DNA of 64,000 bases from Natrinema salsiterrestre (GTDB lineage Archaea; Halobacteriota; Halobacteria; Halobacteriales; Natrialbaceae): positions 682,001-746,000 of the forward strand of contig NZ_JAMQOT010000002.1 in the NCBI RefSeq assembly GCF_029502005.1, in the 5' to 3' direction. Positions 33,748-45,561 of the stretch are shown here, piece by piece. Within the stretch, counting starts at the first letter, position 1; the number at the start of each line of letters is the position of its first letter. The notes below the pieces were generated by a model, which was not told the DNA's origin, did not search any database, and saw only the letters and a list, made by a program, of their open reading frames with translations. The position numbers were made by a program, and so were the translations under genes.

Positions 33748-35865
33748 ATGAGCCACGACGAGTTTCCGACGGACGAACCCGCCGTCGTGACCTGCGGGTT
33801 GCCCTACGCCAACGGCGACCTGCACATCGGTCACCTGCGGGGCTATATCGGTGCAGACGCGTTCAACCGCGCGCTCGAGACGCTCGGCCAGGAATCGATC
33901 TACGTCTGCGGGTCGGACATGCACGGGACGCCGGTCGCCGTCAACGCCGAACAGCAGGGCGTCGATCCGGAGGACTTCGCGCTGGACTGGCACGAGCAGT
34001 ACGAGGAGACGTTCCCGAAGTTCAACGTCGACTTCGACAACTACGGTCACACCCACGACGAGACCAACACTCAGCTGACCCGGGAGATCGTCCGCACGCT
34101 GGACGACGAGGGCTACATCTACGAGAAGGAGATTCAGGTCGCCTACGACCCCGAGGCCGACCAGTACCTCCCCGACCGCTACGTCGAGGGGACCTGCCCC
34201 TACTGCGGCGCGAAGGCCCGCGGCGACGAGTGCGACGAGGGCTGTCAGCGCCACTTAGAGCCGGGCGAAGTCGAGGATCCGACGAGTACGATCACCGGGA
34301 ACGCGGCCGAATACCGCGAGCGGACCCACAAGTTCTTCGAGGTCTCCGAGTTTACCGACTTCCTGACCGAGTTCCTCGACGGCCTCGAGGGCACCTCGAA
34401 CGCGCGCAACCAGCCCCGGCAGTGGATCGAGGACGGCCTGCAGGACTGGTGTATCACGCGGGACATGGACTGGGGGATCGACTATCCTGACGACGAGACG
34501 GACGATGAGGACGACCTCGTCCTCTACGTCTGGGTCGACGCCCCGATCGAGTACATCTCGAGCACGAAGCAGTACTCCGAACGCGTCGGTACGGACGAGT
34601 ACGACTGGGAGCAGGTCTGGAAGGGAGACGGCGAGATCATGCACGTCATCGGCCGGGACATCATTCAGCACCACGCGATCTTCTGGCCGGCGATGCTCGA
34701 GGGCGCGGGCTACAACAAACCGCGCGGGATCGCCGCGACCGGCTTCATCACGATCAACGGCAAGGGGCTCTCGACGAGCCGCAATCGCGCGATCTGGGCG
34801 AAGGAGTACCTGGACGAAGGGTTCCACCCCGACCTGCTTCGGTACTACCTGACGACGACGGGCGGACTCCAGCAGGACGTCGACTTCTCGTGGGACGCCT
34901 TCCAGGAGAAGGTCAACGGCGAGCTCGTCGGCACCGTGGGCAACTTCTGGTACCGCTCGCTGCTCTTCGCCTACCGGAATTTCGAGGGGACGCCGGAGGC
35001 GGACGTCTCCGAGGAGGTCAAAGCGCGCATCGAGGACGCCATCGCAGACGTGCGCGAGAGTGTCAACGACTACTCCATGCGCGGGGTCGGGCAGGCCGCC
35101 ACGGGACTGGCCCAGTTCGGCAACGAGTACATCCAGCGCAACGAGCCCTGGAAGCTCACGGACGACGATCCGGAAGAGGCGGCACAGGTCATCCGCGACT
35201 GCGTCCAGATCGCCAAGGCCGTCGGCGTCCTCATCGAGCCGATCACACCCGACAAGGCACAGGCGCTGTGGACACAGATCGGCGAAGACGGCGAGATCGC
35301 GGACGCCCGCCTCGAGCACGCGCTCGAGGCCCCACCGCGGACCTTCGACGAACCCGGCGAGCTCTTCGAGAAGATCGAGGACGAGCGGGTCGAAGCGCTC
35401 ACGGCGAAACTCGAGGAGCGCGTCGAAGCGGCGTCGGACGACGACGAGGAATCCGACGCCGATGCGGCCGAAACCGAAAGCGACGACACCGACGCGAGCG
35501 AATCCGAGGGTATGACGGACACGGATGACCTCGAGGCGCTGGCCGAGGACCGAATCGGTTTCGACGACTTTCAGGAACTCGATATCCGCGTCGGTCGGAT
35601 CGAATCGGCCGAGGGGATCGAGGGCGCGGACGACCTCGCGCGCCTCGAGGTCGACATCGGCTTCGAGACGCGACAGGTAGTCGCGGGGATCAAGCAGCTC
35701 CACGATCTCGACGAGCTGCCGGGCGAGAAGTGCGTCCTGCTGGCGAACATGGAGAAGGCGGAACTGTTCGGCGTCGAGTCCAACGGGATGATCCTCGCGG
35801 CCGGCGAGGAGGCGGACCTGCTAACGACTCACGGCGACGCCGACGTCGGCGAGAAAATCAAGTAG
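33748..35865 (+). CDS. metG: Methionyl-tRNA synthetase
   Basis: The 705-residue class I synthetase has the HIGH motif at 26-29 (GDLHIGHLRGY), a zinc knuckle CPYCGAK..CDEGC near 150-170, the KMSKS-like KGLSTSRNR near 355, an anticodon-binding helical domain and, after a very acidic linker (about 570-615), a C-terminal EMAP/Trbp111-like tRNA-binding OB domain (DFQELDIRVGRIESAE to end) that promotes dimerisation. The fused OB domain and acidic linker are normal for haloarchaea. A T-run after the stop (GTGTTTTTTCACC) is a likely terminator. Confidence 0.97.
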   Translation: MSHDEFPTDEPAVVTCGLPYANGDLHIGHLRGYIGADAFNRALETLGQESIYVCGSDMHGTPVAVNAEQQGVDPEDFALDWHEQYEETFPKFNVDFDNYGHTHDETNTQLTREIVRTLDDEGYIYEKEIQVAYDPEADQYLPDRYVEGTCPYCGAKARGDECDEGCQRHLEPGEVEDPTSTITGNAAEYRERTHKFFEVSEFTDFLTEFLDGLEGTSNARNQPRQWIEDGLQDWCITRDMDWGIDYPDDETDDEDDLVLYVWVDAPIEYISSTKQYSERVGTDEYDWEQVWKGDGEIMHVIGRDIIQHHAIFWPAMLEGAGYNKPRGIAATGFITINGKGLSTSRNRAIWAKEYLDEGFHPDLLRYYLTTTGGLQQDVDFSWDAFQEKVNGELVGTVGNFWYRSLLFAYRNFEGTPEADVSEEVKARIEDAIADVRESVNDYSMRGVGQAATGLAQFGNEYIQRNEPWKLTDDDPEEAAQVIRDCVQIAKAVGVLIEPITPDKAQALWTQIGEDGEIADARLEHALEAPPRTFDEPGELFEKIEDERVEALTAKLEERVEAASDDDEESDADAAETESDDTDASESEGMTDTDDLEALAEDRIGFDDFQELDIRVGRIESAEGIEGADDLARLEVDIGFETRQVVAGIKQLHDLDELPGEKCVLLANMEKAELFGVESNGMILAAGEEADLLTTHGDADVGEKIK

Positions 35866-44390: not shown

Positions 44391-45290
44391 CTATTCTGCA
44401 GTCGTCACTTCACAGCCGTCTTCGGTGATGATGATCGTGTGCTCCTTCTGACTGACGAGCTTGCCGTCGTCTTCCTTGAGCACCGGATAGCCGTGGACGA
44501 TGTCGTTGCGCTTGAGTCGGCGCAGCGCCATCTCGGCTCGGTCCGTCTCGAGCCATCGCGTCGCGAAGGGGAGCGTGCGGAACTCCTCGGTGATCTGTTC
44601 GAGGGCCTCGCGGGCCTGCCGGTTCCGGACGGTCCCCTCGCGCTCGAGCGAGAAGATTTCCTCGCTCGCGCCTTCGGACACCTTCCCGCCGCCGTCCGTC
44701 GCAAAGGGTTCGATTGCGACCACGTCGCCGACCTCGAGGGTCGTTCCCTGCGAGACGGCGCGGTTCGGGATGTTCGGCGCGGTGTGTTGCTCCCAGTGGC
44801 CCAGCCCGTGGCCGGTGAGGTTGACGACGGGGTTGTAGCCGTAGCCGTCGATCACCTCCTCGATCGTCGCACCGATTTCGCCGGTTCCGATGCCGGGCTC
44901 GATGATGTCGACCGCCGCCTCGAGGGCCTGCTCGGACGCCTCCGCCAGCTCGGGATTCCCGGAGAGATCGACGGTGATCGCGGTGTCGGCCAGCCAGCCG
45001 TCGACGTGGACGCCGATGTCGAGATTGACCATCTCCTCGCCGAAGGTCGTCTCGTCGCCGATCGACGGCGTCGCGTGGGCCGCCTCCTCGTCGATGGAGA
45101 TATTGACGGGGAACGCGGGTCGACCGCCGAGTTCTCGGATCCGCTCCTCGGCCCACTCGGCGACCTCGAGGTGGCTCGCACCGACCTCGACGCGCTCGGC
45201 CGTTTCTTCGCGCACCTGTGCGAGGATCGCCCCCGCTTCGCGGTGTTTCTCGTACTGCTCGGACTCGAGGTCCACCTCGGATTCGGTCAT
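44391..45290 (-). CDS. map: Type II methionine aminopeptidase
   Basis: The enzyme removes N-terminal methionine co-translationally. In 299 residues, the metal ligands sit in VNLDIGVHVDGWLADTAIT (Asp-x11-Asp near 91-102), TGHGLGHW (His near 161), VAIEPFATDG (Glu near 192) and KEHTIIITEDG (Glu near 287). The helical insert of type II enzymes is present around 205-260. It is transcribed away from the palindromic element at 45.4 kb. Confidence 0.96.
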   Translation of the reverse strand: MTESEVDLESEQYEKHREAGAILAQVREETAERVEVGASHLEVAEWAEERIRELGGRPAFPVNISIDEEAAHATPSIGDETTFGEEMVNLDIGVHVDGWLADTAITVDLSGNPELAEASEQALEAAVDIIEPGIGTGEIGATIEEVIDGYGYNPVVNLTGHGLGHWEQHTAPNIPNRAVSQGTTLEVGDVVAIEPFATDGGGKVSEGASEEIFSLEREGTVRNRQAREALEQITEEFRTLPFATRWLETDRAEMALRRLKRNDIVHGYPVLKEDDGKLVSQKEHTIIITEDGCEVTTAE

Positions 45291-45375
45291 GCTCCGGGGT
45301 TGGACAGGTCGACAAAAAGAGGTTCCGTCTCTCCGTCGGGGAAGCCGGTACCGGCCACGCGGTCGACGGTTCCGT

Positions 45376-45450
45376 TATAGTAGTCGTTGAAAGTCATTGC
45401 ACTCCCGCTCGCACTCGAGCGGTGAGTAAATCGTTTCAACGACTACTATA
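45376..45450. mobile_element. 75-bp palindromic element with 17-bp terminal inverted repeats
   Basis: TATAGTAGTCGTTGAAA at 45376-45392 is a perfect inverted copy of TTTCAACGACTACTATA at 45434-45450, with 41 bases between them. The size, the terminal repeats and the absence of coding sequence fit a MITE or a similar non-autonomous insertion. Its right terminal repeat supplies the stop codon of the adjoining tiny zinc-ribbon gene. No flanking target duplication longer than two bases is obvious. Confidence 0.65.
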
Positions 45451-45561
45451 GCCGCTCTCGACCCAGTTACACTCGGAACAGGTCGCGATTCCCTGAACGT
45501 TCGATACCGTCACGGCACACCGTGGACACTGCCGCGGGGCGTACTGCGGTGATCGAAGCAT
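45436..45561 (-). CDS. 41-residue zinc-ribbon microprotein
   Basis: ATG 45561 reads MLRSPQYAPRQCPRC, then AVTVSNVQGIATCSEC and NWVESGYSSR, with CPRC (12-15) and CSEC (28-31) forming a compact zinc ribbon followed by the CxWxE ending typical of haloarchaeal zinc microproteins. The last codons (Ser-Ser-Arg-stop) lie inside the palindromic element, so the original C-terminus was probably ...WVESGY or similar. It would be missed by length cut-offs. Confidence 0.7.
   Translation of the reverse strand: MLRSPQYAPRQCPRCAVTVSNVQGIATCSECNWVESGYSSR

Follow-up and report, generated by a model that had tools for sequence, protein, structure and literature searches.

A locus of Natrinema salsiterrestre raises the question of how the gene for a small zinc-ribbon protein comes to end inside a palindromic repeat, and of what kind that repeat is. 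The locus lies in a stretch of 64,000 nucleotides, the whole of which is referred to here as the window. Our answer is that the 75-bp repeat is very probably a non-autonomous MITE of the IS630 (Tc1/mariner) family, now a relic, which most likely entered the stop codon of the microprotein gene (Table 1).

Table 1. Features at the end of the microprotein gene; positions are those of the window.
Feature	Position	Strand	Basis
Palindromic element, probable MITE, 75 bp, one target-duplication TA at each end counted in	45376..45450	.	arms, fold, family alignments
Outer terminal inverted repeat, 17 bp	45376..45392	+	
Inner terminal inverted repeat, 17 bp	45434..45450	-	
TA copy adjoining the microprotein, presumed bases 1-2 of the old TAA	45449..45450	.	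family duplication and local sequence
Third base (A, minus strand) of the presumed old TAA	45375	-	
Presumed second TA copy of the target duplication	45376..45377	.	
Inner part, conserved GTCATTG and TAAATCG, largely unpaired, around an apical stem	45393..45433	+	
CPRC/CSEC zinc-ribbon microprotein gene, 41 residues and stop	45436..45561	-	
Element-derived gene end, TAT AGT AGT CGT TGA (YSSR, stop)	45436..45450	-	
Next gene downstream of the element, same strand, open and intact	44391..45290	-	

Structure of the element

The two 17-bp arms are 100% complementary and 41 bp apart, which confirms the original prediction of 17-bp terminal repeats with 41 bases inside, 75 bp in all. A search of the 64-kb window for the arm with at most three mismatches gave three matches against 0.02 expected from 100 dinucleotide shuffles; two are the arms of the element and the third is a weak, solitary arm-like 17-mer at 35061-35077 on the minus strand, with 3 mismatches. 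The whole 75 bp is predicted to form a single hairpin with RNA and DNA parameters alike, the RNA fold reaching -40.5 kcal/mol (z = -9.4), a value that none of 200 shuffles equalled. The apical loop has four bases, CACT in the window copy and AGTG, that is, the inverted form, in three sister copies; a further sister, L029, is inverted relative to these three in the same way as the window copy.

A dispersed haloarchaeal repeat family

The original prediction proposed looking for the 17-bp repeat elsewhere, and the arm proved to be widespread. Within the N. salsiterrestre genome (G000) it recurs in elements of 75, 84 and 112 bp; lengths in the family are mostly 84 bp, with others of 75, 112 and about 120-125 bp, and the 75-bp form resembles the 112-bp form minus the segment between its CCGCTCG repeats. 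A covariance model built on 14 copies matches 29 distinct places in the N. salsiterrestre genome at E <= 0.01 (40 rows with the strands kept separate), and it has matches in 36 of 61 genomes, N. salsiterrestre included. Across the class, with 15 candidates scored per genome, 117 of 292 genomes and 32 of 77 genera contain matches. An exact pattern was found in 112 stretches of named genomes; the 80 listed are all haloarchaeal, mainly from Natrinema and Natronosalvus, with Natrarchaeobius, Natrialba, Halostella, Salinibaculum and a Natrialbaceae MAG also among them. Phage records searched by blastn and viral contigs searched with the exact pattern gave no match to the element.

In the relative G028, of which 20 copies were read, ten identical 84-bp copies stand between unrelated flanks. 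For counts of ends and targets we used a set of 104 copies, from which one repeated place (L079) and weak matches (L203, L212 and two in L213) are excluded; 88 of the 104 are 84 bp long. Some elements occur in tandem or are inserted in the ends of others (L092, L243, L249, L269, L300, L302). A separate 204-bp repeat (L123:12152-12355) lies exactly between two elements and has dozens of matching places across the genus.

Target site and duplication

The ends read TATA...TATA in 84 of the 104 copies, and CTAG, with its flanking C and G, is the target of 64. IS630 reportedly prefers TA in CTAG, to go by the title of a 1991 paper by Tenzen and Ohtsubo. Empty sites were sought by joining the flanks of 221 elements into 186 distinct queries and searching the collected loci with these. 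Apparently unoccupied sequence was matched by 25 queries, 13 of them nested or tandem, 6 too diverged and 6 clean. At all six clean empty sites exactly two bases stand at the junction: TA in three, and in the others TG (CG in some relatives), TG and CA. The element therefore makes a two-base duplication of its target, which is TA and in most cases part of CTAG. The window site is among the six too-diverged matches and gave no clean empty allele.

Insertion into the microprotein gene

The inner arm does supply the last codons and the stop of the microprotein, as the original prediction held, although the codons number four (YSSR, then TGA) rather than three. The gene is conserved: protein matches at E <= 0.001 occur in 38 of the 61 genomes, its own included, of which the weaker are perhaps other zinc ribbons; neither the window microprotein nor one orthologue has a Pfam or NCBIfam match above the cut-off. 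The gene was picked by its motif in 22 best-match loci of the 38 genomes, namely the window, 20 element-free loci and one from a related species (G010). The element-free orthologues have 40-49 residues, and none of the 20 carries the SSR C-terminus, the observation that would have spoken against a contribution of the inverted repeat. G010 has the element at the same place and its protein ends in YRSR. This shared position, together with flanks that are 91% identical, suggests that the insertion probably predates the split between the two lineages.

Restoring a single TA turns the window sequence into GGC TAA CGG and that of G010 into AGC TAA CGG, so that both have an in-frame stop. Since the family duplicates TA and the restored frame yields TAA, the element most likely entered the stop codon itself and added four residues (YSSR) and a TGA, instead of replacing a longer tail. 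In the rival account, which develops the replacement of the natural end first put forward for this locus, the insertion point lies before the old stop and a longer tail (TEPSIA) was lost from the protein; we regard this as unlikely. Insertion into the stop codon implies an ancestor of 37 residues, shorter than all 20 element-free orthologues with their 40-49, and in G010 the sequence past the insertion point, read without a duplication, is ACG GAA CCG TCG ATC GCG TGA, which spells TEPSIA and then a stop (in the window the last codon is TGG). However, tail displacement needs an insertion without target duplication, whereas two extra bases were found at six of six clean empty sites, and the frame with one TA restored reads TAA. 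The earlier statement that the natural end was replaced is not supported in that form, given the two-base duplication that leaves GGC TAA in frame. What is supported is that the element is mobile, has one end within the gene, provides the stop and spares the zinc ribbon. An annotated CDS of Natronorubrum bangense stops five bases into a related element.

We take the gene downstream of the element to be methionine aminopeptidase-like from its sequence, and in orthologous loci the start of its counterpart comes after the microprotein gene. A block, GAGACGGAACCTCTTTTT, lies between the two genes on the minus strand (45280-45340) and is found in most of the orthologous loci read; it is perhaps the promoter of the downstream gene.

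Resemblance to IS630 elements

Haloarchaeal ISs of about 1,054-1,062 bp at PF13358 loci have the ends TATAGTAG or TATAGTAA; IS630 loci were reached by way of PF13358 in 6 of 13 genomes in one search and in 11 of 15 in another. The transposase of one such IS, L192, exceeds the cut-offs of both models, with 134.3 bits for PF13358 (DDE_3) and, for one frame, 135.3 bits for NCBIfam transpos_IS630 (cut-off 100). In three ISs that were translated (L173, L177 and L192) the transposase extends over two overlapping frames, as if frameshifted.

The first eight bases are common to the MITE and IS ends. Beyond these, and without gaps, the MITE left end agrees with one IS end at 13-14 of 24 positions in four of five ISs, a level matched by 1-13 of 5000 shuffles, and the right end agrees with the other IS end at 13-15 of 24 in three of five (0-20 of 5000); ends paired crosswise agree at 7-12 of 24. 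When scored by local alignment, the resemblance of the left end is clear in only three of the five ISs and that of the right end is not significant, with 45-461 of 500 shuffles as good across the five; our confidence in the MITE account was lowered slightly on this point and remains high. Set against the MITE consensus, one end of the IS L338 has 6 differences in 30 positions.

A length of 75-125 bp, many copies, exact 17-bp arms in the window copy and the lack of a transposase gene are the features of a MITE, as are the two-base duplication at all six clean empty sites and ends like those of an autonomous transposon, a likeness seen in the eight bases and the ungapped identity at both ends and in local score at the left only. 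Insertion at TA with duplication of TA (three of the six empty sites) agrees with the IS630/Tc1-mariner family, and L192 provides a partner with an IS630 DDE transposase, a domain (PF13358) that is absent from several MITE-rich genomes. We regard the element as an IS630-type MITE, a known kind of element to which it adds a new member from haloarchaea.

Two other classes of short repeat were weighed against this assignment. The short mobile repeats (SMRs) of Haloquadratum walsbyi are in the same size class (80 to ~110 bp), with prominent inverted ends and no coding capacity, according to their description in PMC3119063. An SMR would make no duplication, would have ends unlike any transposon and would be moved by an enzyme of no known type; the two-base duplication at the empty sites and the resemblance of the ends to IS630 elements make this identity highly improbable. 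A repeat of the REP/RAYT type or an IS605-derived PATE would likewise be palindromic and high in copy number, and the haloarchaeal element has GTAG inside. The REP class is associated with a Y1 (RAYT) transposase. True terminal inverted repeats, the two-base duplication and IS relatives with a DDE transposase leave this reading with next to no credibility, and PATEs, as defined in the part of PMC3119063 that deals with them, have near-terminal palindromes and no terminal inverted repeat.

If the element is an IS630-type MITE, as we hold, the source of its transposase is a separate matter. PF13358 has no match in the N. salsiterrestre genome or in G010, G005 and G021. The numbers of ISs and MITEs are out of step: G024 combines 62 matches to PF13358 with 6 to the MITE, while G005 and G021 have 0 PF13358 matches and at least 72 MITE matches each, with the strands counted separately. 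It is on these two grounds that we consider the window copy a relic, and so most copies in its own genome were presumably moved by an enzyme that has since been lost or that the PF13358 model misses. G028, with its burst of identical copies, contains a PF13358 fragment only, and the cognate transposase of the youngest copies was therefore not found. An autonomous element was also sought in G028 through apparently unpaired arms, for which at least 100 places were listed and 20 regions read; each of the nine arms read belongs to a short element, some of them decayed.

Paired arms

Among 73 distinct 84-bp copies, arm positions 9-12 are variable and mostly still complementary. Over the whole structure the double-change cells number 66, whereas shuffles give 15.2 and none of 500 reaches the observed value; counts of this kind are inflated by kinship among the copies. 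For comparison, the two ends of 16 ISs (seven of 21 loci were omitted, for example L199, with a broken end, L194 and L197) agree at position 8 in 3, at position 9 in 0, and at positions 10 and 11 in 10 each. The two ends of an IS are thus unlike, and transposition does not seem to require that they match. It is plausible that the paired change of the MITE arms is caused by the copying of one arm from the other.

Elements at gene ends

Gene-end elements had been suggested to be tolerated or selected. With genes called by a codon-usage script of our own rather than a standard program, we classed 168 of the 221 element sites, having dropped 13 of the own lineage, 32 repeats, 7 with short flanks and 1 with N. 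Of these 168 sites, 24 coincide with a stop codon, 16 follow one by no more than 20 bp, 11 are in genes and 1 precedes a start by no more than 20 bp; the corresponding figures for 218 unoccupied CTAG sites are 16, 2, 47 and 12. Gene ends, defined as the stop or the 20 bp after it, a limit set only once the distances had been seen, thus hold 40 of 168 elements against 18 of 218 CTAG sites (p = 3e-5), and gene interiors 11 against 47 (p = 4e-5). The 114 CTAG-sited elements by themselves behave alike, with 27 at gene ends (p = 2e-4) and 6 inside (p = 6e-5). Stop codons taken alone give a difference in this larger set (24 of 168 against 16 of 218, p = 0.03); a first count, with 17 of 104 elements at stops compared with 28 of 213 CTAG sites, gave none (p = 0.49), nor did the same 104 elements set against a background without re-created element sites (20 of 163, p = 0.37) or two stricter gene-calling settings (p = 0.70 and 0.54).

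The own lineage was treated as a set of its own, to which G000 contributes 24 of its 29 places and G010 28 of its 30, making 41 distinct sites. Stop codons account for twelve of these, the window gene being a manual addition; 11 more lie no further than 20 bp past a stop and none is inside a gene, compared with 9, 0 and 14 of 52 background CTAG sites. Gene ends again stand out (23 of 41 against 9 of 52, p = 1.5e-4), while stop codons alone show no significant excess (12 of 41 compared with 9 of 52, p = 0.21). One site common to both genomes is at a stop in G000 (L387) and inside a gene in G010 (L409); counted as inside, it leaves 22 of 41 at gene ends (p = 3e-4) and 1 of 41 inside (p = 0.001). 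In both sets, gene ends are about threefold over-represented relative to the local background and gene interiors are depleted, and with similar enrichment in the two, a rise with age is not established. The 20 young G028 copies include 3 at stop codons and as many in gene interiors. The bias fits tolerance and probably comes from the loss of insertions elsewhere; a benefit, the other half of the suggestion, is not shown by it. At L029:2819-2893, two convergent genes are predicted to share one CTAG as their stop, and an element occupies it.

A strong hairpin, covarying arms (the 66 double-change cells against 15.2) and the bias towards gene ends are also what a structured RNA or terminator retained for its function might display. 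However, copies are not confined to 3' ends, the 81 intergenic copies comprising 19 divergent, 16 convergent and 29 tandem positions and 17 at locus edges; the single Rfam match in the scanned region lies off the element and scores 14.7 bits against a gathering threshold of 50; and identical copies with unrelated flanks fit a mobile element. We consider such a retained function very unlikely as an explanation of the family, while single copies may be used by the host.

The MITE account leaves room for a further and tentative reading, to which we give only a small chance: CTAG would serve as a safe address, the leftover CTAG sites being mostly outside gene interiors, and the hairpin would be kept perfect by arm copying, new arm sequences thus appearing as pairs. 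In the loci read, CTAG occurs 173 times in 402 kb against 1354 expected from base composition, an approximately eightfold depletion. In 198 of 208 MITE arms (TGA) and in all 32 arms of the 16 ISs (TAG), reading in the frame of the stop codon meets its first stop at codon five; a second IS630 type (L194, L197), omitted from that comparison, has one end without an early stop, as judged by eye. Within the safe-address reading, a stop at the same fifth codon in the MITE arm and in that of the IS type resembling it, whose sequences differ, would make entry into a stop codon nearly silent.

Proposed mechanism and known systems

We propose the following mechanism for the origin of the present gene end. 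An IS630-family transposase, acting in trans, would recognise the TATAGTAG ends of the MITE, which would insert at TA, preferably in CTAG, with duplication of the TA. A copy would then have entered the stop codon of the microprotein gene, either TAA or a TAG later changed, in an ancestor common to N. salsiterrestre and G010; this pre-insertion state of the gene is one that we infer. With the arm read in frame as TAT AGT AGT CGT TGA, the product would have gained four residues and a new stop, its zinc ribbon untouched.

The closest parallel is RUP of Streptococcus pneumoniae, an IS630-Spn1 MITE described in PMC2229807 as 107 bp long, inserted at TA and high in copy number, and thought there to be moved in trans by the transposase of an IS630 element whose ends are similar. 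RUP is bacterial; in the haloarchaeal element the two arms pair into a single near-perfect hairpin, and CTAG is the main target. ERIC and Correia/NEMIS are likewise short palindromic repeats that are mostly intergenic, and some can alter neighbouring transcripts, as reported in passages of PMC10969869 and PMC2229807; their hosts are bacteria, and it is for the haloarchaeal element that an IS630 with similar ends has been identified here. The SMRs of H. walsbyi share the haloarchaeal host, a length of 80 to ~110 bp, inverted ends and a size too small to code for a transposase, but the SMR descriptions in PMC3119063, with no duplication and no related transposon, set them apart from our element, which has both. 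IS630 of Shigella sonnei also inserts at TA with a two-base duplication (as described in PMC2170065) and is, unlike the haloarchaeal MITE, autonomous and bacterial. Our literature search, which did not extend to ISfinder, found no haloarchaeal IS630 MITE.

For a widespread haloarchaeal repeat, this provides a probable identity, a target site and a kind of enzyme that may mobilise it. CTAG is under-represented in every haloarchaeal genome analysed in PMC6471742 and is methylated in two Natrinema strains according to PMC6696651, and in the light of these accounts the family should make it easier to test what keeps CTAG rare. The paired change of the arms would offer a clean case for palindrome correction in an archaeon, and insertion into a stop codon, the most likely event at this locus, would represent a concrete route by which mobile DNA rewrites protein C-termini.
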